Shown here: in pieces, positions 3,873 through 33,487 of the stretch
Numbering within the stretch: the stretch's first letter is position 1
Layout of the letters: every line of letters begins with the position of its first letter
From: a virus
Reading direction: 5' to 3' (one strand)
IMG/VR virus record: IMGVR_UViG_3300037010_000255
Span: 1 to 33,487 of that record
Length of the DNA stretch: 33,487 nt
Made by a program: the position numbers and the translations under genes
Notes under the pieces: generated by a model
Seen by the model: only the letters and a program-made list of their open reading frames with translations
Database searches by the model: none
What the model was told of the DNA's origin: nothing

Positions 3873-6800
3873 TTATTAGCCATTTCCTTCTGTAGTTTAG
3901 AGAGTTGTGCCCATTCAGCAGGAGAAACCTTCTCGCCTTTTAGTAACCTGCCCTTGAGCACTTTAAGATAGTTGTTATAATTGAAATAGGCTTTCTTAGT
4001 GCTCTTCTCTTTTACGTCAGCAAGTTGGTCAGTAAGTACTTGGCCTATGCTATGGTCTCTAGTAGATGCTTGCTGCATCATCTGTGCAGGTGCAAACCTA
4101 GTGGCCATATACAGTCCAGCATCCTCTACTTGTCTGCCCACTGGATCAGCTTTTTGATGTATTGGTTGTCCTGTGATTATATCCCTATTAAGGAACATAG
4201 AGAGTGCATCTGCAGTAGCAGAAGATGGGGATATCAAGGAACGGATTAGCGACTCTGCATCAATAGAGTTCTCTGTTGCAAGCTTCTGCACAGATTCTAT
4301 CAAAGCAAAACCACCAGCACGCCTAGCAGTAACGGCCCTGTTTAGCAACCAAGACATACCCTTATCCATAGCAGGGTAGAGTTGTGAGTACACTAGACCC
4401 ATTACAGCAAGCTGACCTAACAAGGTGGTAGAGGCTTGTACCAACTCTTTAGCAGATTTACCAATATGCTCTGGACCAAGGACAAGACCTTTACCCAACT
4501 CTCCACTACTCTTTCCAAACTCTACAAAAGATCTAGCAACACCATAGTGGTAGTAACTAAATTGAGTAAGGACAGGGTTCTTCATGATATTAGCAATACC
4601 TCTGCGGCCCAATACACGATTAGGTATACGGTAGCTAGGCATGTGCTTCTCTACCTCTTTGATGGATTGCTGCATCAAAGGTGCTCGTTCCTCTTCTGAC
4701 ATCTTAGACCACTCTGGCTTAGTTTTACCCAAGTGCTCTAGTACAGCTTGAGTATACATCATATCTCTAGCTGTCCACATAACATGGTTACTCATCTTTG
4801 CCCAAGTAGATATAAAATCTACAGGAGTCATGCCAATAGACTTAGCTAGGTTAATAAGGTTAGGGTCAGACGGATTCAGTGCCTTCTTCTGCTCTTCTAG
4901 CCGCCCAGCATAGTACTCCTTGTTCATAATATCAGGCATGAACGTAGTAGCACCATTCCGAAGCATCTCTCTTTGCAAGGCATCTTGTTTCAGTACACTC
5001 TCCCTGGCTCTATTGCCAGTTGTCCATAGGGATAATGTACCTTGAGGGGTCACCCATTCCTTGCCTCGTTCTACAATCCAGTGCATACCTTCATTGTTGA
5101 TGTGGGGGATGGGGTTTAGAAACATAGCCTTTAGTAGGTAGTTCTGGGCAAGCATCAAGGCTTTAGCACCAGTACCATACCTCTTAGGTTCCAAGAAGTC
5201 TTCTAGGGCCTCTGCTACATTGGCATCCATATACTTGCCATTTAGCTCTGGGATAACCTCCCTAACAGCCTCACTGGGCTGTCTCCATCCAGATGCCTTT
5301 AAATCATTAACCTCTGCTTCTGACATCTTACGAGTGTCTTGTATGATATGAGAATATGCAGGATTGGTTGTGATCGCCTTAATCGTCTTAATAGCAGAGA
5401 TAGCTTGATCTAGTTCCTGTTCTTTTCGGATAGTCGCAGATAGCCCATTAGGCAGGTATTTGGTATCAGTGTGGGTCTCTGCTTCTGTTTGGGTAGATAG
5501 GCGAACCTCTCCAACCTCATTAGCACCAACCTTCAACACCATCCCAGGTTTTACCTTAGCAGCTTCAGCAGAAGATACGCGACCTATTACAGAAGGGACA
5601 CCATTGGTCCATTGGATAATTGGGCGAGTCTTCCAACGAGGGTTGGGGTCGCCTATACTTATAATACTCGTAGAGCCGTCAGGGTGGTCTACCGAATGAT
5701 AGCTACGGGCACGAGCGATAGAGGGTGTCCTAGATACTCCTAAAGCTTGAGAGATACCCCTCTCAGATAGTTCAAGCAACCTGTCAATGAAGCCACCTTT
5801 TCCGATAGCGTACCGTGGCACGATGCCCTTATCGTAATCGAAGTCTTTTCCAGCTAAGCTTGCATACTCCTTCATCTTCTGGGCAAGGCGATCAACAGCG
5901 GGTATGAAGAACTTTTTATATAGTGGGAACTCTTCCCTGGTAAGGGGTGTACTCTCTTCAGTAGCAGAGGTAAATTTACGACCCATTTCGTCAGTAACAC
6001 CGGCAGCAGCAGCAGCTTTCTCGCGCTCAATAGCTAGACTCTCTGCTGCAACAGTAGATGTTTGCATACGGTGAAGGGCGTCTGCAATCTCACCTACAGA
6101 AGCTTTTACTTCTTCTGGTGTCCTGAACTTACGAAGAGTGTCTGCAAGGCTTTGTACACCCTCTTTGATAGCTTGTAGATCGATAGCACCAGCTTGTCTG
6201 GCCCCAGGTCCCCTGAATGCTTTAGGGCGGCTCTTAGGGATAGGAGTTTCATCGTATGCGTCTCCTTTAGTCATTCGAGCTTCTTGTTCCGCTTGAGCAG
6301 TCTTATGCTCATTCCAAGCTTGATCTATCTGCTTCTGCTTCGCCTGATAGGCAGCCTCTTCTTCTGCATGTTGCTGCTCGTCAGTTTTAGCAGTATCAAT
6401 CTTCTCCTGATTAAGCTTGGCTGTAACAGCAAGCTTTTCATCCATACTAGACTTTAGTTGTTCATCAATTACATCTTGATTCTTCTGTTCAAAAGTCTTG
6501 TCTTGTTTAGGTGCATTAGTAGCTTTTCTAGCAGCATCTTCTCTAGCAGCTTTTACATAACCATCTACTTCAGGTTGTTCATCGATTACATTTTGATCCT
6601 TCTGTTCAAAAGTCTCGTCTTGTTTAGGCGCATTAGCAGCTTTTCTAGCAGCATCTTCTCTAGCATCTTCTCTAGCAGCTTTTCTAGCAGCAGCTTTTCT
6701 AGCAGCAGCTTCTCTAGCAGCTTTTACATGGCCATCTACTTCAGCAGGAGTAACAGGTTGCGGAGGAGCCTTCTCAACAAAAGTAGTTTCAGGTGCCTCT

Positions 6801-7549
6801 TGTCCTTCGTCAACCTTAACTCTCTTACCTGCCTTGAGAGTCTCTGCACCAGCTTTAGTTGCATCTCGAATGAAAGAAGCGGTAGCAAGAGAGCCTTTAA
6901 TAGTGGGAACAGCAATAGTAGATGCCTGAGTAGCCCATTGACCTTCCTTGACGATCTTTTGATAATCATCAAGAGTCATATCTTTATTGTAGAGGCGTTT
7001 GAACTCAGCAGCTACAGTGCCTACTTCTGCACCGAATACATCAATACCTTGACTAATAAGAGACATAGCCGTATGCAACGACTCAGAGGGGTTTGTAGCC
7101 AGAATATTCTGAGTATACTCATCCACCTTCTTCTGCGACTCAAGGACATTCTCTTGAGTGAACAGTGCGTGAGCACCAGCAGCTAGAGTGTTCATAGCAA
7201 ACTTAATAGGAGATGCAACAAGAGTCTCCATATCTTGCTTATTCTGCTGGATGGTATGTAAGGTATTAGCTACAGCAGCCTGTGCAGGAGATAGTTTTGA
7301 GAAGGCTTTAGCACGATCTGCATCCTCTTGAGTACCATCTGTTACATTCTTCCAAGCTTTCTTGGCAGTAGTCTCGAACTCTTCTGTAGGTTTCTGAAGA
7401 GCAGTAGAGATACGATCAAAGAGGGTAGCTGCTGGCTTTACGGGAGCAGGTGTAGCTATGTTCTCCTGCTTATAGTCGTCCCAAGGACCACTCTCCGTTG
7501 CTGTTTGTTGCGGGTAGTCTTCCCAAGGGCCATTCTCTGCTGCTGCCAT
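3869..7549 (-). CDS. Large internal virion / DNA-ejection protein candidate
   Basis: A 1226-residue protein, the largest in the window. The N-terminus has a twin GPWEDY/GPWDDY motif common in phage ejection-type proteins. Residues about 270-450 are a charged, Ala/Lys/Arg/Glu-rich helical region containing an internal duplication. The following section (LTREEFPLYKKFFIPAVDRL, then GLSATIRKEQELDQ, ALMLAQNYLLKAMFLNPIPHI) resembles large podovirus internal proteins. A hydrophobic stretch near the C-terminus (LVQASTTLLGQLAVMGLVYSQL) could enter membranes. I chose the ATG at 7549: it follows GGGAGAAGG at good spacing and overlaps the upstream stop as TAATG, whereas a longer frame would need a TTG. 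Context with two other candidate ejection proteins supports the assignment; no enzymatic motif was recognised. Confidence 0.6.
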   Translation of the reverse strand: MAAAENGPWEDYPQQTATESGPWDDYKQENIATPAPVKPAATLFDRISTALQKPTEEFETTAKKAWKNVTDGTQEDADRAKAFSKLSPAQAAVANTLHTIQQNKQDMETLVASPIKFAMNTLAAGAHALFTQENVLESQKKVDEYTQNILATNPSESLHTAMSLISQGIDVFGAEVGTVAAEFKRLYNKDMTLDDYQKIVKEGQWATQASTIAVPTIKGSLATASFIRDATKAGAETLKAGKRVKVDEGQEAPETTFVEKAPPQPVTPAEVDGHVKAAREAAARKAAARKAAREDAREDAARKAANAPKQDETFEQKDQNVIDEQPEVDGYVKAAREDAARKATNAPKQDKTFEQKNQDVIDEQLKSSMDEKLAVTAKLNQEKIDTAKTDEQQHAEEEAAYQAKQKQIDQAWNEHKTAQAEQEARMTKGDAYDETPIPKSRPKAFRGPGARQAGAIDLQAIKEGVQSLADTLRKFRTPEEVKASVGEIADALHRMQTSTVAAESLAIEREKAAAAAGVTDEMGRKFTSATEESTPLTREEFPLYKKFFIPAVDRLAQKMKEYASLAGKDFDYDKGIVPRYAIGKGGFIDRLLELSERGISQALGVSRTPSIARARSYHSVDHPDGSTSIISIGDPNPRWKTRPIIQWTNGVPSVIGRVSSAEAAKVKPGMVLKVGANEVGEVRLSTQTEAETHTDTKYLPNGLSATIRKEQELDQAISAIKTIKAITTNPAYSHIIQDTRKMSEAEVNDLKASGWRQPSEAVREVIPELNGKYMDANVAEALEDFLEPKRYGTGAKALMLAQNYLLKAMFLNPIPHINNEGMHWIVERGKEWVTPQGTLSLWTTGNRARESVLKQDALQREMLRNGATTFMPDIMNKEYYAGRLEEQKKALNPSDPNLINLAKSIGMTPVDFISTWAKMSNHVMWTARDMMYTQAVLEHLGKTKPEWSKMSEEERAPLMQQSIKEVEKHMPSYRIPNRVLGRRGIANIMKNPVLTQFSYYHYGVARSFVEFGKSSGELGKGLVLGPEHIGKSAKELVQASTTLLGQLAVMGLVYSQLYPAMDKGMSWLLNRAVTARRAGGFALIESVQKLATENSIDAESLIRSLISPSSATADALSMFLNRDIITGQPIHQKADPVGRQVEDAGLYMATRFAPAQMMQQASTRDHSIGQVLTDQLADVKEKSTKKAYFNYNNYLKVLKGRLLKGEKVSPAEWAQLSKLQKEMANK
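6458..6745 (-). repeat. Imperfect tandem duplication inside the large virion gene
   Basis: Two similar blocks, about 6458-6573 and 6574-6745, encode versions of NAPKQD(E/K)TFEQK(D/N)Q(N/D)VIDEQ preceded by runs of AAR(E/K)A and DARED. The second (protein N-terminal) block has extra copies of the short AAARKA unit. This suggests slipped-strand or recombinational expansion of a helical linker. Confidence 0.75.
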
Positions 7550-8730
7550 TATTGTACCTTCTCCCAACTAGCTTTGTTGTGGGGGTCTCCTCCAAGATAC
7601 CTATATCCTTTTTGTACTGTGCCGACAGAAGGAAGGGTGTTTGGTGTATTGGCGGGAGACTTACTAGGTTTTGTATTAGCTACATTAGATGTACCGTATT
7701 TACCATCAGTAAGTCCACCTAATCCAGCATTAGCCGTATCAATCCTACTCTCTTCAATACGGATATTCTCCATAATAGAAGCTTCCTTAGTCCGCTTATC
7801 TTCTTCAGATAGTGTACCAGACTTCATAGGATTATTGAGGTCTGCCAATTGAGAACGATATTGCCTCATGTTACCAGTAGCAGCAGCCTTATCCTTTTGG
7901 TATGTAGCGATAGCAGCTTTGACAGCAGGATCAGTAGTGTTCTTAGTAGCAACCTTAGCTGCACTGGCCTGTACTTTTTCCCTAGAGATAGCGATACGTT
8001 GAGTGTTGCTCCACTTAACATCTGCTGCTTTCTGCTCTGCTAGTTTCTGTTTCTCTGCAGCAATCTGCTCAGTCATTTTAAGTTTAGCCAACTTATCTAC
8101 TTCAGTCTGAGGCAACATACTATCAGCTTTTTGTTGAATAGCAGAACTGATCTGTCCCCAGTGTTGACCAATATCAGGATGGTTCATCAAAGCAGCGATA
8201 GATGCAAGGGTGGCTTGTTGCATCCGTTCTTGTTCTGGTGCACCTTTCATCTCCTCTTCAGGACGAAGATGCGAGGCAATATACTTCTGCATCTCTTGCG
8301 GAGACTGGGAAGCTTGCCGAAGCTGGTCAGCTTGTAGTTGGTTAGATGACTCATACGTCCTAGTAGTGTCTTCTTGTGCCTTCAGCTTAGAGGTAGCAAT
8401 ATCTGCCAGTTGCTTTTGTAAGGTCTCTGCAATCTTAGGATCATCTGTAGTCTTGAGCTCTTGTTCAAGTACCTTTTGAGCTTTGTCTGCTCCTTGATAC
8501 TCTTTAAGAGACTCTTGAGCACTTTTCTGCAGGCTGAGGATAGCCTGCGTAGACTGCTGCTGCTGCTGCCAAGAGGCTTTCTCTTCCTCGAGCTTTAGTG
8601 CATTGATGTCCTGTGTCGTGGCTCTTCCAGCAGTTTGAGCCTGTATATCTGCTGTCTCTGCATATGTCTTACCGAGATTAGCTACATCCTGCATTCCGGT
8701 AAGTAGGCCGGTGCCGAATCCTAGTGCCAT
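7549..8730 (-). CDS. Coiled-coil internal virion protein candidate
   Basis: A 393-residue protein. The Gly-rich N-terminus (MALGFGTGLLTGMQD) is followed by a long Gln/Ala/Lys/Glu-rich region (about 25-260) predicted to be coiled coil, and a Thr/Ser/Pro-rich linker. It ends in GYRYLGGDPHNKASWEKV, a tail (GGDP...WE-hydrophobic) seen at the C-terminus of several phage internal or tail proteins. It lies between a Gly/Asn-rich protein and the large ejection candidate, the arrangement of multi-gene ejection clusters in podoviruses. A good ribosome site (AAGGA) precedes the ATG. The function is inferred from context. Confidence 0.5.
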   Translation of the reverse strand: MALGFGTGLLTGMQDVANLGKTYAETADIQAQTAGRATTQDINALKLEEEKASWQQQQQSTQAILSLQKSAQESLKEYQGADKAQKVLEQELKTTDDPKIAETLQKQLADIATSKLKAQEDTTRTYESSNQLQADQLRQASQSPQEMQKYIASHLRPEEEMKGAPEQERMQQATLASIAALMNHPDIGQHWGQISSAIQQKADSMLPQTEVDKLAKLKMTEQIAAEKQKLAEQKAADVKWSNTQRIAISREKVQASAAKVATKNTTDPAVKAAIATYQKDKAAATGNMRQYRSQLADLNNPMKSGTLSEEDKRTKEASIMENIRIEESRIDTANAGLGGLTDGKYGTSNVANTKPSKSPANTPNTLPSVGTVQKGYRYLGGDPHNKASWEKVQ

Positions 8731-26255: not shown

Positions 26256-26284
26256 ATTATAACATACTTTTTTAGGTTTGTCAA
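26256..26284 (-). promoter_or_regulatory. Perfect sigma70 promoter of the late operon
   Basis: Minus strand: TTGACA (26284-26279), 17-base spacer, TATAAT (26261-26256), extended -10 TG. The -10 box lies 34 bases before the terS start codon. The spacer (AACCTAAAAAAGTATGT) is close to that of the two other strong promoters in this family. Confidence 0.88.
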
Positions 26285-26332
26285 GCTTTATTTTCACTTT
26301 TTAAGAAATATTTTTATTTTTGTAAAAAAGAC

Positions 26333-26361
26333 TTGACAAAAGATAAAAAGTATGCTATAAT
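26333..26361 (+). promoter_or_regulatory. Perfect sigma70 promoter of the rightward region
   Basis: TTGACA (26333-26338), 17-base spacer AAAGATAAAAAGTATGC, TATAAT (26356-26361), extended -10 TG. It is divergent from the late promoter, with 48 bases between the two -35 boxes, and would start RNA near 26368 that runs through the non-coding leader. Confidence 0.88.
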
Positions 26362-29012: not shown

Positions 29013-29594
29013 ATGAAGTATGAACTTACCACAGAAGCCATTGAAACAAATGGCAAGGTTTTATATAGAATCAGGGCTCTTAAAGACTTTGGAGATGTTT
29101 GTATTGGAGACCTTGGAGGGTTTATAGAGAAGTATGAAAACCTCTCTCAAGAAGGGGATGCTTGGGTCTATGAGAATGCTCAGGTCTATGAGAATGCTCG
29201 GGTCTCTGGGGGTGCTTGGACCTCTGAGGATGCTCATGTCTTTGGGGATGCTCAGGTCTCTGGGAATGCTGGGGTCTTTGGGAATGCTCGGGTCTCTGAA
29301 TATGCTCGGGTTTCTGAGGATGCTCATGTCTTTGGGGATGCTTGGATCTATGAGAATGCTCAGGTCTCTGGGGATGCTTGGGTCTTTGGAAATGCTCGGG
29401 TCTTTGGGGATGCCCTGGCCTTTGGGAATGTTAAGGTCTATGGGGATGCTTGGGTATCTGGGAATGCTTGGGTCTATGAGAATGCTCAGGTCATTGAGAA
29501 TGCTCATGTCTATGGGGATGCTCATGTCTATGGGGATGCTTGGATCTCTGGGGATGTCCCAAAGACCATAACAACAGATACCAAGATGATTTAG
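29013..29594 (+). CDS. Left-handed beta-helix hexapeptide-repeat protein, copy 1
   Basis: A 193-residue protein. The N-terminal 45 residues (MKYELTTEAIETNGKVLYRIRALKDFGDVCIGDLGGFIEKYENLSQEGD) match the conserved head of YdcK-like phage and prophage proteins. From about residue 47 to 185 it consists of six-residue repeats of the type (N/D)A-x-V-x-G/E-, such as VYENAQ and VSGNAG, expected to stack into a triangular left-handed beta-helix. The role of this family is unknown. The DNA is an 18-base-scale tandem repeat, prone to length change. AAGGAGAT ribosome site. Confidence 0.75.
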   Translation: MKYELTTEAIETNGKVLYRIRALKDFGDVCIGDLGGFIEKYENLSQEGDAWVYENAQVYENARVSGGAWTSEDAHVFGDAQVSGNAGVFGNARVSEYARVSEDAHVFGDAWIYENAQVSGDAWVFGNARVFGDALAFGNVKVYGDAWVSGNAWVYENAQVIENAHVYGDAHVYGDAWISGDVPKTITTDTKMI

Positions 29595-29613
29595 TAGAAC
29601 AAGGAGATCAAGA

Positions 29614-30360
29614 ATGAAGTATGAACTTACCACAGAAGCCATTGAAACAAATGGCAAGGTTTTATATAGAATCAGGGCTCTTAAGAGTTTTGGTAATGTC
29701 CGTATTGGAGACCTTGGAGGGTTTATAGAGAAGTATGAAAACCTCTCTCAAGAAGGGGATGCTTGGGTCTATGAGAATGCTCAGGTCTATGAGAATGCTC
29801 GGGTCTCTGGGGGTGCTCAGGTCTCTGGGAATGTTTGGGTCTCTGGGGATGCTCGGATCTCTGGGAATGCTCTGGTCTTTGGGAATGCTCTGGTCTTTGG
29901 GAATGCTCAGGTCTTTGGGAATGCTTGGGTCTCTGGAGATGCTCGGATCTCTGGGAATGCTCTGGTCTCTGAGGATGCTTGGGTCTATGGGAATGCTCAG
30001 GTCTTTGGGAATGCTTGGGTCTCTGGGGATGCTTGGGTCTCTGGGGATGCTCGGGTCTACAGGAATGCTCAGGTCTCTGAGGATGCTTGGGTCTATGGAA
30101 ATGCTCGGGCCTCTGAGGATGCCCAAGTCTTTGGGGATGCTCAGGTCTCTGGGAATGCTTGGGTCTCTGGGAATGCTTGGGTCTTTGGGAATGCTCAGAT
30201 CTCTGGGAATGCTTGGGTCTTTGGGGCTGCTCGGGTCTCTGAGGATGCTCAGGTCTATGGGAATGCTCGGGTCTCTGGGGATGCTCGGGTCTCTGGGAAT
30301 GCCCAGGTCTACAGGAATGCCCCAAAGACCATAACAACAGATATCAAAGTGAGTGTATAA
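29614..30360 (+). CDS. Left-handed beta-helix hexapeptide-repeat protein, copy 2
   Basis: A 248-residue paralogue of the upstream gene. Its first 68 residues are nearly identical to copy 1, differing mainly at KSFGNVR versus KDFGDVC. The hexapeptide repeat region runs from about 47 to 238 and is longer than in copy 1, consistent with repeat expansion. The leader, including AACAAGGAGATCAAGA, is duplicated too. It ends one base before the ATP-grasp gene start, suggesting the products are made together. Confidence 0.75.
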   Translation: MKYELTTEAIETNGKVLYRIRALKSFGNVRIGDLGGFIEKYENLSQEGDAWVYENAQVYENARVSGGAQVSGNVWVSGDARISGNALVFGNALVFGNAQVFGNAWVSGDARISGNALVSEDAWVYGNAQVFGNAWVSGDAWVSGDARVYRNAQVSEDAWVYGNARASEDAQVFGDAQVSGNAWVSGNAWVFGNAQISGNAWVFGAARVSEDAQVYGNARVSGDARVSGNAQVYRNAPKTITTDIKVSV

Positions 30361-30361
30361 A

Positions 30362-31081
30362 ATGTGGAAAGTAATATCGCCTACCTGCTGTAGGGCCTCA
30401 GCACATGCCCTAGAATCACAACTGAATCAGGACCACCCGATTGAAGGTACTATCATCATCAATTGGGGTAACTCGCAACTTAACAATACGGATACAAATA
30501 CGGTATTCGGCAATAAACTAGAAGCGGTAAAGAGAAGTACAAATAAACGTATTATGTTTTCTTTGCTAAAAAATTTGGGAACTGTTCCAGTCATTACAGA
30601 AGAAAATAAGGATGATTATGATAATTATTATATTCATATTGACCCTAGTGGCCATAATGGCTCTGGGATAATCTATAAGAATAAAGAAGAATATAACTTT
30701 AACCCAAATGATTTAGTAGCCGGAGAGGTCAAAGGAAAAGAATTCCGGGTATATTTTTCATATGGTAGTACATTCTCTGTTTATAAAAAAGAGAAACTAC
30801 ATAATGCAAATGATTCAAATATACATAATAGTCATAATGGATGGGGATATGAAAGTAATCCACAGGAATTACGGAATGTCCCACAACTTGAAGCGATTAT
30901 GCGTGAATATACGCTAAAAGCTGCTAACAGGTTGGAATTGTCCTACGGTGCTGTAGATTTTATATATGGACAGGACGGGTATGTATATATCTTGGAGACT
31001 AATTCAGCACCTACATTAATCGAACCAGGACTGTTATATAGTTTCAGTGAAGCTATTAACTATCAACTTAATTCAGATTAA
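30362..31081 (+). CDS. ATP-grasp ligase of the amidoligase cluster
   Basis: A 239-residue compact ATP-grasp enzyme (RimK or phage COOH-NH2 ligase type). After MWKVISPTCCRASAHALESQL, visible motifs are the glycine-rich loop SGHNGSGI (about 96-103), VKGKEFRVY (about 123-131), and the metal-binding end GAVDFIYGQDGYVYILETNSAPTL (about 196-219), where E212 and N214 would coordinate magnesium. It would activate a carboxylate as acylphosphate and join it to an amine. I start at the ATG at 30362; a GTG nine bases earlier would overlap the upstream gene. The partner amidoligase follows after 26 bases. Confidence 0.8.
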   Translation: MWKVISPTCCRASAHALESQLNQDHPIEGTIIINWGNSQLNNTDTNTVFGNKLEAVKRSTNKRIMFSLLKNLGTVPVITEENKDDYDNYYIHIDPSGHNGSGIIYKNKEEYNFNPNDLVAGEVKGKEFRVYFSYGSTFSVYKKEKLHNANDSNIHNSHNGWGYESNPQELRNVPQLEAIMREYTLKAANRLELSYGAVDFIYGQDGYVYILETNSAPTLIEPGLLYSFSEAINYQLNSD

Positions 31082-31107
31082 CTTTTAACTTAATCAGGAG
31101 ACGGATA

Positions 31108-32496
31108 ATGCAAAACTTCAAATACTTTAACGATACAATGACCAATATTATTCAATGGTGTATTGAGAATAATGCCAGTCATGAAAGGTCGGGCAATTAT
31201 GTTTATATATATGATGGTAATGGTTATTCTAAATGTTGGGTACACACTAACAATACATCCGCTAATGCTGATCTAATACTCTATGGGCTAGGATGGCGTA
31301 GGGAATTAAAGAAAGAGGAAATCGAAACATGGATTAAAGGCCTACACCATACCTATAGAGGCCTGATGTTTACTGATTGGCTAAATGATAAATGGCAAGA
31401 GGAACAGTTCAAGAGTGATTTCCGATTGTTCAGGTCTTATATCAACAAGACTTTTAATACACGAAATCGTATCAGCCTACTAAAAAATGGTAAAGTTGCA
31501 CTTACAAAATATATCATTACATATACTGAATATGTAGATGGGGAGTTTATTGAAAGAGAAGTAACTTCCCCTGTACCGGATAGTCTATCTTATGCTTACA
31601 TGGGCACACAACCAATCTACTATGATTACTCGACTGTCTCTTGTTATTATATTGATAATACTTATCTTCCAATCTTCAAGATAATTGTAGAGGACATCCA
31701 AGAGTGCCCAGACCATCCGGGTGAGCTGTACATGCCTGATGGAGTGTGTCGGTTGTGTGCAGAGAAATACAAGATACACAGCTACAGTACAAACGCACTA
31801 GATTTCTTTGAGTTCCGTAAGCTGGATAAAGAGAAAAACCCTGTTTATCTTGGAGTTGAACTAGAGTTTGATACAGAGCCTAGGCTTCTAAAGAATGCTT
31901 TGGAGAAACACACACACCATATGATTGCAAAGCATGACGGAAGTATCCTTGGGTTTGAGCTGGTTACTGCTCCGGCTACATATGCTATCCACAAACAAGA
32001 ATTTGAAACCTTCCCATTTGAGAAACAGGTTGTTTCATACCGAGATGGTATGCACATACATATCGATAAGAAAGCATTAACAACAATGCAAATTGGTAAG
32101 ATGTTTGAGTTCATGTATACACAGGAGAATATAGAATTGCTTAAGGTAATTGCAGGGCGAGGACTAGGAACCTACTGCTCTACTACATCTGGTGTTAAGT
32201 CTCTGTTATCTACCCTCAAAGAGCATGAAGGTGGCCTAGAGTATCGTGTAGAGGGTAGCCACGGAACGGCATTGAATGTGTCTGGTAAATCTACGATAGA
32301 GGTACGGATTTTCCGTACTCCAGAGACATATGGAGAGTTTATGTCTCGTCTGCAATTTGTCAAAGCACTGATTGAATGGACTGCTCCAGGCGCTGTGGAC
32401 TATGGTGTCAAGGGTTTTAAGGATGCGAATAACTTCCTTAACTTTGTAACAGAAGGCCGGAAGTCTTACCCCAATCTATTCAATTCTATTATCTAA
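31108..32496 (+). CDS. Amidoligase family protein
   Basis: A 462-residue protein. Residues about 246-440 match the amidoligase enzyme family, a glutamine synthetase-like fold: YLGVELEFD (247-255), KHDGSILGFELVTAP (275-289), DGMHIHID (313-320), and VEVRIFRTP-type IEVRIFRTPET. These carry the acidic and histidine residues of the ATP/metal site. In front is a long N-terminal region with a cysteine/histidine cluster (C200, H203, C214, C217), possibly a zinc site. The enzyme would form an amide bond using ATP. AGGAG ribosome site. It sits between the ATP-grasp and glutamine amidotransferase genes. Substrate unknown; peptide tagging of a protein or a cell-wall or small-molecule target are options. 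Confidence 0.8.
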   Translation: MQNFKYFNDTMTNIIQWCIENNASHERSGNYVYIYDGNGYSKCWVHTNNTSANADLILYGLGWRRELKKEEIETWIKGLHHTYRGLMFTDWLNDKWQEEQFKSDFRLFRSYINKTFNTRNRISLLKNGKVALTKYIITYTEYVDGEFIEREVTSPVPDSLSYAYMGTQPIYYDYSTVSCYYIDNTYLPIFKIIVEDIQECPDHPGELYMPDGVCRLCAEKYKIHSYSTNALDFFEFRKLDKEKNPVYLGVELEFDTEPRLLKNALEKHTHHMIAKHDGSILGFELVTAPATYAIHKQEFETFPFEKQVVSYRDGMHIHIDKKALTTMQIGKMFEFMYTQENIELLKVIAGRGLGTYCSTTSGVKSLLSTLKEHEGGLEYRVEGSHGTALNVSGKSTIEVRIFRTPETYGEFMSRLQFVKALIEWTAPGAVDYGVKGFKDANNFLNFVTEGRKSYPNLFNSII

Positions 32497-32512
32497 TAAG
32501 GAAGGAATAATT

Positions 32513-33361
32513 ATGTGTATAATTGCAGCTAAGCCACAAGGTTTCACCATAGACGATTCAACAATCGAAATCATGTGGGAGAATAATTCAGATGGTGGTG
32601 GCTTCATGTACGCTAAAGATGAAACTCTTTTTGTCATTAAGGGCCTAATGACTCTTGAGGAGTTTAAGAAAGCTTACAAGGTAGTCGGTACATTACCCGC
32701 TGTACTCCACTTTCGTATTAAGACGCATGGTAAATTGGATAAGGAAAACACACACCCTTTCCGAGTAAGTGATAAGATTGCTGTAGTTCATAATGGGGTT
32801 ATCAATAACATTACCTGTGAAGATAAAGATAAATCGGATACTTGGCACTTTACCGAGAAAGTACTTAAACCGCTTTGTAGGGCAGATGGTAAGTTTATCC
32901 TACGCCCCTATAATAAAGAATTATTGTCTGGGTATATTAACAGCAGTAAGTTAACCTTCTTGGATAACTTGGGCCATATTAACTTTATCAATGAAGCTAA
33001 AGGTGAATGGAAGGATGGTGTCTGGTTCTCTAATGGCTCTTGGGGGCCTCGGAAGAAGCCCACACCTGCGCCTGTAATGGGTACCGTCAGTGATTGGTAT
33101 GGACGTGGGGATAGAGGAGGGTACTATCATAACCCCAGCGACTCATCTTACCTTTCCATTGGGGACACTGTAGAGGTTATCAAGGTACGGCATGGGCGGT
33201 CTGGGATAACAGTGGGAGAGGTTGGTATGGTAGAATCTCAATTGCAAGGTGGTTGGCTGCGAATCCTATTTCATCAACCAACGGAAGATGGCACGGTTAT
33301 TGAACGATCACTCCCAATGCATGAGGATGATCTAACTTATAAGTACATGTTCAACTATTGA
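32513..33361 (+). CDS. Class II glutamine amidotransferase-like protein with C-terminal SH3-like domain
   Basis: A 282-residue protein beginning MCIIAAKP; C2 would be the N-terminal nucleophile after methionine removal. HFRIKTHGKLDKENTHPF (about 67-84) and AVVHNGVINN (about 89-98) match the Ntn-type glutaminase fold seen in GATase class II enzymes. It would release ammonia from glutamine for amide formation by a partner. The C-terminal part (SYLSIGDTVEVIKVRHGRSGITVGEVGMVESQLQGGWLRILF) looks like an SH3-barrel or KOW-like domain. Strong AAGGAAGGA ribosome site; 16 bases after the amidoligase gene. Confidence 0.78.
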   Translation: MCIIAAKPQGFTIDDSTIEIMWENNSDGGGFMYAKDETLFVIKGLMTLEEFKKAYKVVGTLPAVLHFRIKTHGKLDKENTHPFRVSDKIAVVHNGVINNITCEDKDKSDTWHFTEKVLKPLCRADGKFILRPYNKELLSGYINSSKLTFLDNLGHINFINEAKGEWKDGVWFSNGSWGPRKKPTPAPVMGTVSDWYGRGDRGGYYHNPSDSSYLSIGDTVEVIKVRHGRSGITVGEVGMVESQLQGGWLRILFHQPTEDGTVIERSLPMHEDDLTYKYMFNY

Positions 33362-33487
33362 GTAGAACAAGGAGATCAAGAATGAAGTATGAACTTACCA
33401 CAGAAGCCATTGAAACAAATGGCAAGGTTTTATATAGAATCAGGGCTCTTAAGAGTTTTGGTAATGTCCGTATTGGAGACCTTGGAG
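33361..33487 (+). repeat. 127-bp perfect direct repeat (copy of 29593-29719)
   Basis: Every base from 33361 to the window end equals 29593-29719, covering the stop-proximal leader, ribosome site and gene start. The true repeat probably extends beyond the window. A similar leader and start precede copy 1 from about 28998, with a few differences. Confidence 0.95.
33382..33487 (+). CDS. Left-handed beta-helix protein, copy 3 (cut by window end)
   Basis: The first 35 codons, MKYELTTEAIETNGKVLYRIRALKSFGNVRIGDLG, are identical to copy 2 including its KSFGNVR variant. The gene runs off the window. Its AAGGAGAT ribosome site is part of the duplicated leader. Confidence 0.75.
   Translation, partial: MKYELTTEAIETNGKVLYRIRALKSFGNVRIGDLG

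Follow-up and report, generated by a model that had tools for sequence, protein, structure and literature searches.

A glutaminase, amidoligase and ATP-grasp gene cassette predicted to form amide bonds in an uncultivated tailed phage

Three consecutive genes at one end of a phage contig raise the question of what they make, on which molecule they act and which of their neighbours, if any, belong with them. The window (the whole stretch of DNA analysed here) comes from an uncultivated tailed phage and is, at 33,487 bases, an incomplete contig that stops directly after the trio and the start of a third beta-solenoid gene. A DNA-level search of deposited phages returned none close to the window and none near-identical to it. 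The genes are intact plus strand open reading frames covering positions 30362-33361 and encode, in order, an ATP-grasp ligase, an amidoligase (AML) and a glutaminase (GAT) (Table 1). A preliminary description had presented them as an amide-bond-forming system in an early-type position and named the flanking beta-helix proteins as conceivable substrates.

Genomic setting

The virion genes of the window (terminase, portal, capsid and connector) are on the minus strand. The trio is encoded on the opposite strand downstream of a rightward promoter (Table 1), and the cassettes of relatives adjoin replication genes, lying just before those for primase, helicase and polymerase; the early-type position assigned to the trio is therefore plausible. 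A second, leftward and equally perfect promoter stands back to back with the first, and region 26256-26361 thus holds paired perfect extended -10 sigma-70 consensus promoters where the leftward virion genes switch to rightward genes. Mechanical gene calling placed the start of the ATP-grasp gene at GTG 30353. We place it at ATG 30362, which matches the start of the sister gene in locus L154 (MWKVISP...) and gives a gene of 30362-31081. The AML start codon is preceded by GGAG and that of GAT by AAGGAAGG. At the other end of the window, positions 1-1585 contain the 3' terminus of a group I intron, matched in Rfam at E 1.5e-4 (under the gathering score). Next come an endonuclease VII/HNH-like gene and the C-terminal half of a gene for ribonucleotide reductase, an arrangement suggesting that the intron interrupts the reductase gene.

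Table 1. Features of the cassette, its surroundings in the window and the tail-protein loci of relatives
Feature	Position	Strand	Evidence or remarks
Perfect extended -10 sigma-70 promoter, rightward (early-type) region	26333..26361	+	12/12 matches, TG before -10; consensus only
YdcK-type beta-solenoid gene 1, neighbour outside cassette	29013..29594	+	PF18836, E 3.8e-20
YdcK-type beta-solenoid gene 2, neighbour outside cassette	29614..30360	+	PF18836, E 3.9e-43
ATP-grasp (RimK/ArgX/Ddl-like) carboxylate-amine ligase, 239 aa	30362..31081	+	PHROG, RimK profile, AF2/Foldseek
Amidoligase AML, 462 aa	31108..32496	+	PHROG 2443, invariant residues, model
AML layout			N-terminal region modelled with low confidence; Cys-rich linker; catalytic domain of glutamine-synthetase fold at about 240-462
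Class II (Ntn, Cys2) glutaminase GAT, about 190 aa plus C-terminal VGDxV, SH3-like region	32513..33361	+	Conserved residues, GlmS profile
Start of solenoid gene 3, 35 codons, cut by contig end	33382..33487	+	Inside 127-bp exact repeat of 29593-29719
Tail-protein genes	L057:12686-13696; L154:5389-5643 and 7653-8380		
Further tail loci beside ATP-grasp	L012, L016, L017, L020, L022, L025, L029, L031, L038, L041, L043, L165-L179		

Active sites of the three enzymes

Single-protein Pfam matches to the trio are weak, and alignments were consequently built from relatives. These alignments, profile searches and AlphaFold/Foldseek agree on two ATP-dependent ligases of different folds and an Ntn glutaminase, as had originally been described. 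The ATP-grasp protein matches PHROG 2599 (E 2.5e-28), its profile matches RimK (E 1.6e-6), and its AF2 model (pLDDT 89) has an ATP-grasp fold with ArgX, RimK and Ddl as top structural matches (Foldseek E 3e-10 to ArgX/RimK). The alignment indicates that E130, R132 and the Mg-binding Asp, Glu and Asn (D202, E215 and N217; numbers counted from GTG 30353) are kept. The position of the basic, nucleotide-binding residue before the Gly-rich loop is occupied by Arg in most relatives and by His in the window, L057 and L154, and since these two sister loci share the His at about 50% identity, the substitution reads as a trait of the lineage rather than as decay.

AML matches the amidoligase family PHROG 2443 (E 3e-4), residues E251, E253, D277, E284, H316, H318, R351, E398 and R400 are invariant across 34 homologues, and the metal and substrate motif set of glutamine-synthetase-like ligases (E-x-E, E, H-x-H, R, E-x-R) is present in full. 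Its catalytic domain was modelled confidently and matches YbdK and glutamine synthetase with a Foldseek probability of 1.00, and also PafA/Dop; the N-terminal half (first 200 residues) yielded a low-confidence model only. At the curated cut-off of Pfam Amidoligase_2 (PF12224) there was no match for the window AML, and the AML of L057 scored subthreshold. Residues and model together predict that AML works like an amidoligase, though one outside PF12224 membership. GAT begins MCII..., with M1 and C2 invariant or nearly so among 26 homologues, and its conserved positions (C2, H66, R68, T71, G73, H93-N94-G95 and D109) include the glutamine- and oxyanion-binding residues of class II amidotransferases (R68, N94-G95 and D109). 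The GAT profile matches the GlmS glutaminase (E 1.5e-10).

Active-site degeneracy was looked for on these alignments, and the catalytic residues proved to be kept in all three proteins bar the one Arg-to-His change in ATP-grasp. That change and the weak single-protein Pfam scores are what could be cited for the genes being decaying or catalytically dead remnants, an idea to which we give very little credence given that the reading frames are full-length, all other catalytic residues are invariant and the His is common to sisters only about half identical in sequence.

Obligate and optional parts of the cassette

In loci retrieved with AML alone, GAT was found within 200 bp of AML in 40 of 41 cases, the remaining locus being L057, where one small gene separates the two; with a limit of 2 kb it was found in 30/30 AML-retrieved loci. 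Loci retrieved with ATP-grasp alone contained AML without exception (35/35) and GAT nearly so (33/35), whereas ATP-grasp was present in only 5 of the 20 AML loci with enough flanking sequence. On the basis of this one-sided co-occurrence (35/35 versus 5/20), the simplest reading is that AML and GAT form an obligate core, a glutamine-dependent amide synthetase, and that ATP-grasp is an optional add-on ligase, so that the two steps can now be considered separately. Pairwise distances correlate strongly between AML and GAT (r 0.976) and less so between ATP-grasp and each of them (about 0.8), values that derive in part from shared phage ancestry, many loci belonging to closely related phages. The window, L057 and L154 group together in all three trees.

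We consider it probable, at roughly 0.6, that the trio works as an early-type phage cassette and makes amide bonds by way of the glutaminase, AML and an optional ATP-grasp step. Judging from motif and fold, GAT would free ammonia from glutamine through its Cys2 nucleophile; AML would activate a carboxylate with ATP and join it to that ammonia or to another amine; and the RimK/ArgX-like ATP-grasp enzyme, optional in the wider family, would extend the same molecule by an amino acid or a peptide. No experiment or biochemistry on any cassette member was found in the literature accessible to our search.

Candidate substrates and partners

Beta-helix genes had been described on both sides of the trio. 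Upstream there are indeed two complete solenoid genes; downstream just 35 codons of a third can be read. The window ends in 127 bases (33361-33487) that exactly copy 29593-29719, which we infer to be what an assembler working with 127-base words leaves at a repeat. The third solenoid copy is real sequence whose continuation beyond the contig end is not seen, and a 3,768-bp unit of solenoid, ATP-grasp, AML and GAT genes might be tandemly repeated. Solenoid genes 1 and 2 (29013-30360) are themselves in tandem, with near-identical first 106 bp, a common PKTITTD ending and differing repeat numbers, a pattern suggestive of recent duplication and repeat slippage. That the flanking proteins are the substrates or partners of the trio is hardly credible: their adjacency in one contig, where the ATP-grasp gene starts 2 bp after solenoid gene 2, speaks for it, but the expected co-occurrence failed to appear in either direction. 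No solenoid gene was found in the flanks of loci retrieved with AML or ATP-grasp (0/72) or anywhere in whole records of trio phages (0/28), and no GAT was found in solenoid-carrying viral records (0/17). In named phages the solenoid is moreover scattered over unrelated groups (Streptococcus, Bacillus, Vibrio, Edwardsiella and other phages). Because of this lack of co-occurrence and scattered distribution we reject the solenoids as a general part of the cassette, which rules out the beta-helix neighbours as its general partners.

A more specific lead comes from the relatives. Next to ATP-grasp, L057, L154 and some 25 more loci have genes for between one and four small proteins (80-170 aa). Their bodies diverge and show weak SH3/KOW-like signatures, but their C-termini share a tail of roughly 15 residues (hxxKIxxhYxRFxxR), for example ERKIAVMYKRFENR; tails in L057 include SIERKIAVMYKRFENRKEN, AVERKIAVMYKRFEQRKNHV and AIERKIAVMYKRFENRNAK. 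None of these proteins matches Pfam over the cut-off, and just one matches a PHROG (of unknown function). Of 43 tail matches in a scan of 25,516 ORF C-termini, 40 lie no more than 1.6 kb from ATP-grasp; the 81 loci with AML and GAT but without ATP-grasp had no tail. Across 14 whole phage records, tails were found beside ATP-grasp only, bar one weak match (E 0.02, in a 13-codon frame). Between paralogues within L057 and within L154, the synonymous sites of the tails are nearly saturated and non-synonymous differences few, so the tail peptide itself is under selection. This amino-acid conservation also led us to discard the tail as a mere ribosome-binding or start-codon overlap in L057 and L154; in the L012-type loci the terminal YAF does overlap the start codon that follows. 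Because the final tail residues are not conserved, a reactive C-terminus of the Pup or LysW kind was likewise rejected. A held-out profile of the L012-type tails ranks further ATP-grasp-adjacent genes first. Such held-out searches recover no L012-type tails from the L057/L154 tails, nor the reverse, for which reason there may be two tail families, and a common origin of the two groups is unsupported by these profiles. VGDxV motifs are about 2.5-fold enriched near ATP-grasp by regular expression (31/822 versus 32/2167), a difference that is not decisive. In L154, an ORF at 6374-7660 starting MKIDRIKIVGFKSVAEVTLDQLEPFSVFAGPNGAGKSNLTDALSF, an SMC/OLD-like ATPase by eye and markedly more GC-rich, lies between ATP-grasp and the other tail genes.

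The tail proteins, unannotated in Pfam, are candidate substrates or partners, and to us the most interesting new lead, offering a specific and testable client or adaptor set in the closest relatives of the window. It is possible, if on balance doubtful, that they are recognised by the cassette via the shared tail and aminoacylated or amidated by it. The close and near-exclusive association with ATP-grasp, the selection pattern of the tails and the top Foldseek match of ATP-grasp, to a complex of ArgX with the small carrier protein LysW, are in favour of this. Against it, the final residues vary where Pup and LysW have a reactive C-terminus, the tails possibly fall into two families, many trio loci lack tail genes, and none was found in the sequenced window, as expected if those of this phage lie beyond the contig end, the contig stopping right after the trio. 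The more complete proposal is marginally less probable and we offer it tentatively: the trio would be dedicated to modifying proteins, its clients being small, diversified SH3-like phage proteins with a shared C-terminal docking tail, encoded next to ATP-grasp and, in this phage, beyond the contig end. In keeping with the prediction published for phiEco32/LUZ24 relatives, which is also the wall-precursor alternative of the preliminary description, a peptide containing glutamate, for instance a precursor of the host wall, is the likeliest single substrate class, though we favour it only weakly over a small protein of the phage; the longer versions of the cassette add a COOH-NH2 ligase and a gamma-glutamyl cyclotransferase, enzymes of gamma-glutamyl chemistry. 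Phage DNA bases with amino-acid and amide additions exist, and together with the position of cassettes next to replication genes this would accommodate a role in making a precursor for DNA base hypermodification. Such a role seems improbable, as there are no nucleotide-modifying enzymes among the commonest families of 76 neighbouring proteins (the first 25 of 100 families) and none adjoining the cassette in the named relatives examined.

Comparison with known systems

Cassettes of AML, GATase and ATP-grasp occur widely in phages, and annotations from 2009 onwards describe them as modifiers of the cell wall or of metabolites. The preliminary description was right that such amidoligase neighbourhoods have been predicted in phages and are uncharacterised. 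The phiEco32/LUZ24-type module was predicted by Iyer et al. 2009, as cited in PMC10580990, PMC11945000 and PMC11318856, where it is described as modifying peptidoglycan or the cell wall and as possibly preventing superinfection; UFV-P2 (PMC3890496) is cited among the phages with this module. We found two architectures among the loci. In the phiEco32/LUZ24 type, AML and ATP-grasp are accompanied by a COOH-NH2 ligase, by additional GATases of class I and of a longer class II form, and often by a gamma-glutamyl cyclotransferase. The short type, to which the window belongs, combines an AML extended at its N-terminus with a short GAT and, in a subset of phages, with ATP-grasp; primase/helicase and polymerase genes come next. 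The window cassette is thus a short, rearranged variant of the already predicted module. Within the short type, gene order is ATP-grasp-AML-GAT in the window and AML-GAT-ATP-grasp in the sisters L057 and L154.

Like the window, the phiEco32/LUZ24 module has amidoligase, class II GATase and ATP-grasp genes together or adjacent on the early strand, the module lying near primase/helicase. The module also carries a COOH-NH2 ligase of PF14395, its class II GATase is longer, and a class I GATase-like protein and a gamma-glutamyl cyclotransferase are often present as well; none of these was found in the incomplete window contig, which has the short GATase, the N-terminally extended amidoligase and the order ATP-grasp-AML-GAT. 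There was no match in this contig to PF14395, in a search run without a positive control, or to gamma-glutamyl cyclotransferase, in a search that did match in controls. The closest annotated relatives are the Methylophilales phages MEP401 and MEP402 (PMC10580990; AML 32%, GAT 40%), whose AML-GATase pair resembles that of the window in gene order and short GATase but has no adjoining ATP-grasp. Mycobacterium phage Marvin also carries adjacent AML and GAT homologues (gp105/gp106), at about 25-30% identity to the window and with no ATP-grasp found nearby. The best fold and profile matches of the window ATP-grasp are RimK, ArgX-LysW and D-Ala-D-Ala ligase, from which it differs in being short and in having His for the family Arg, and at 12-17% identity its substrate class is not assignable from the match. 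The catalytic domain of AML shares its fold with YbdK, glutamine synthetase and PafA/Dop at about 10% identity, and AML is set apart from all of these by its extra N-terminal region and its obligate partner glutaminase.
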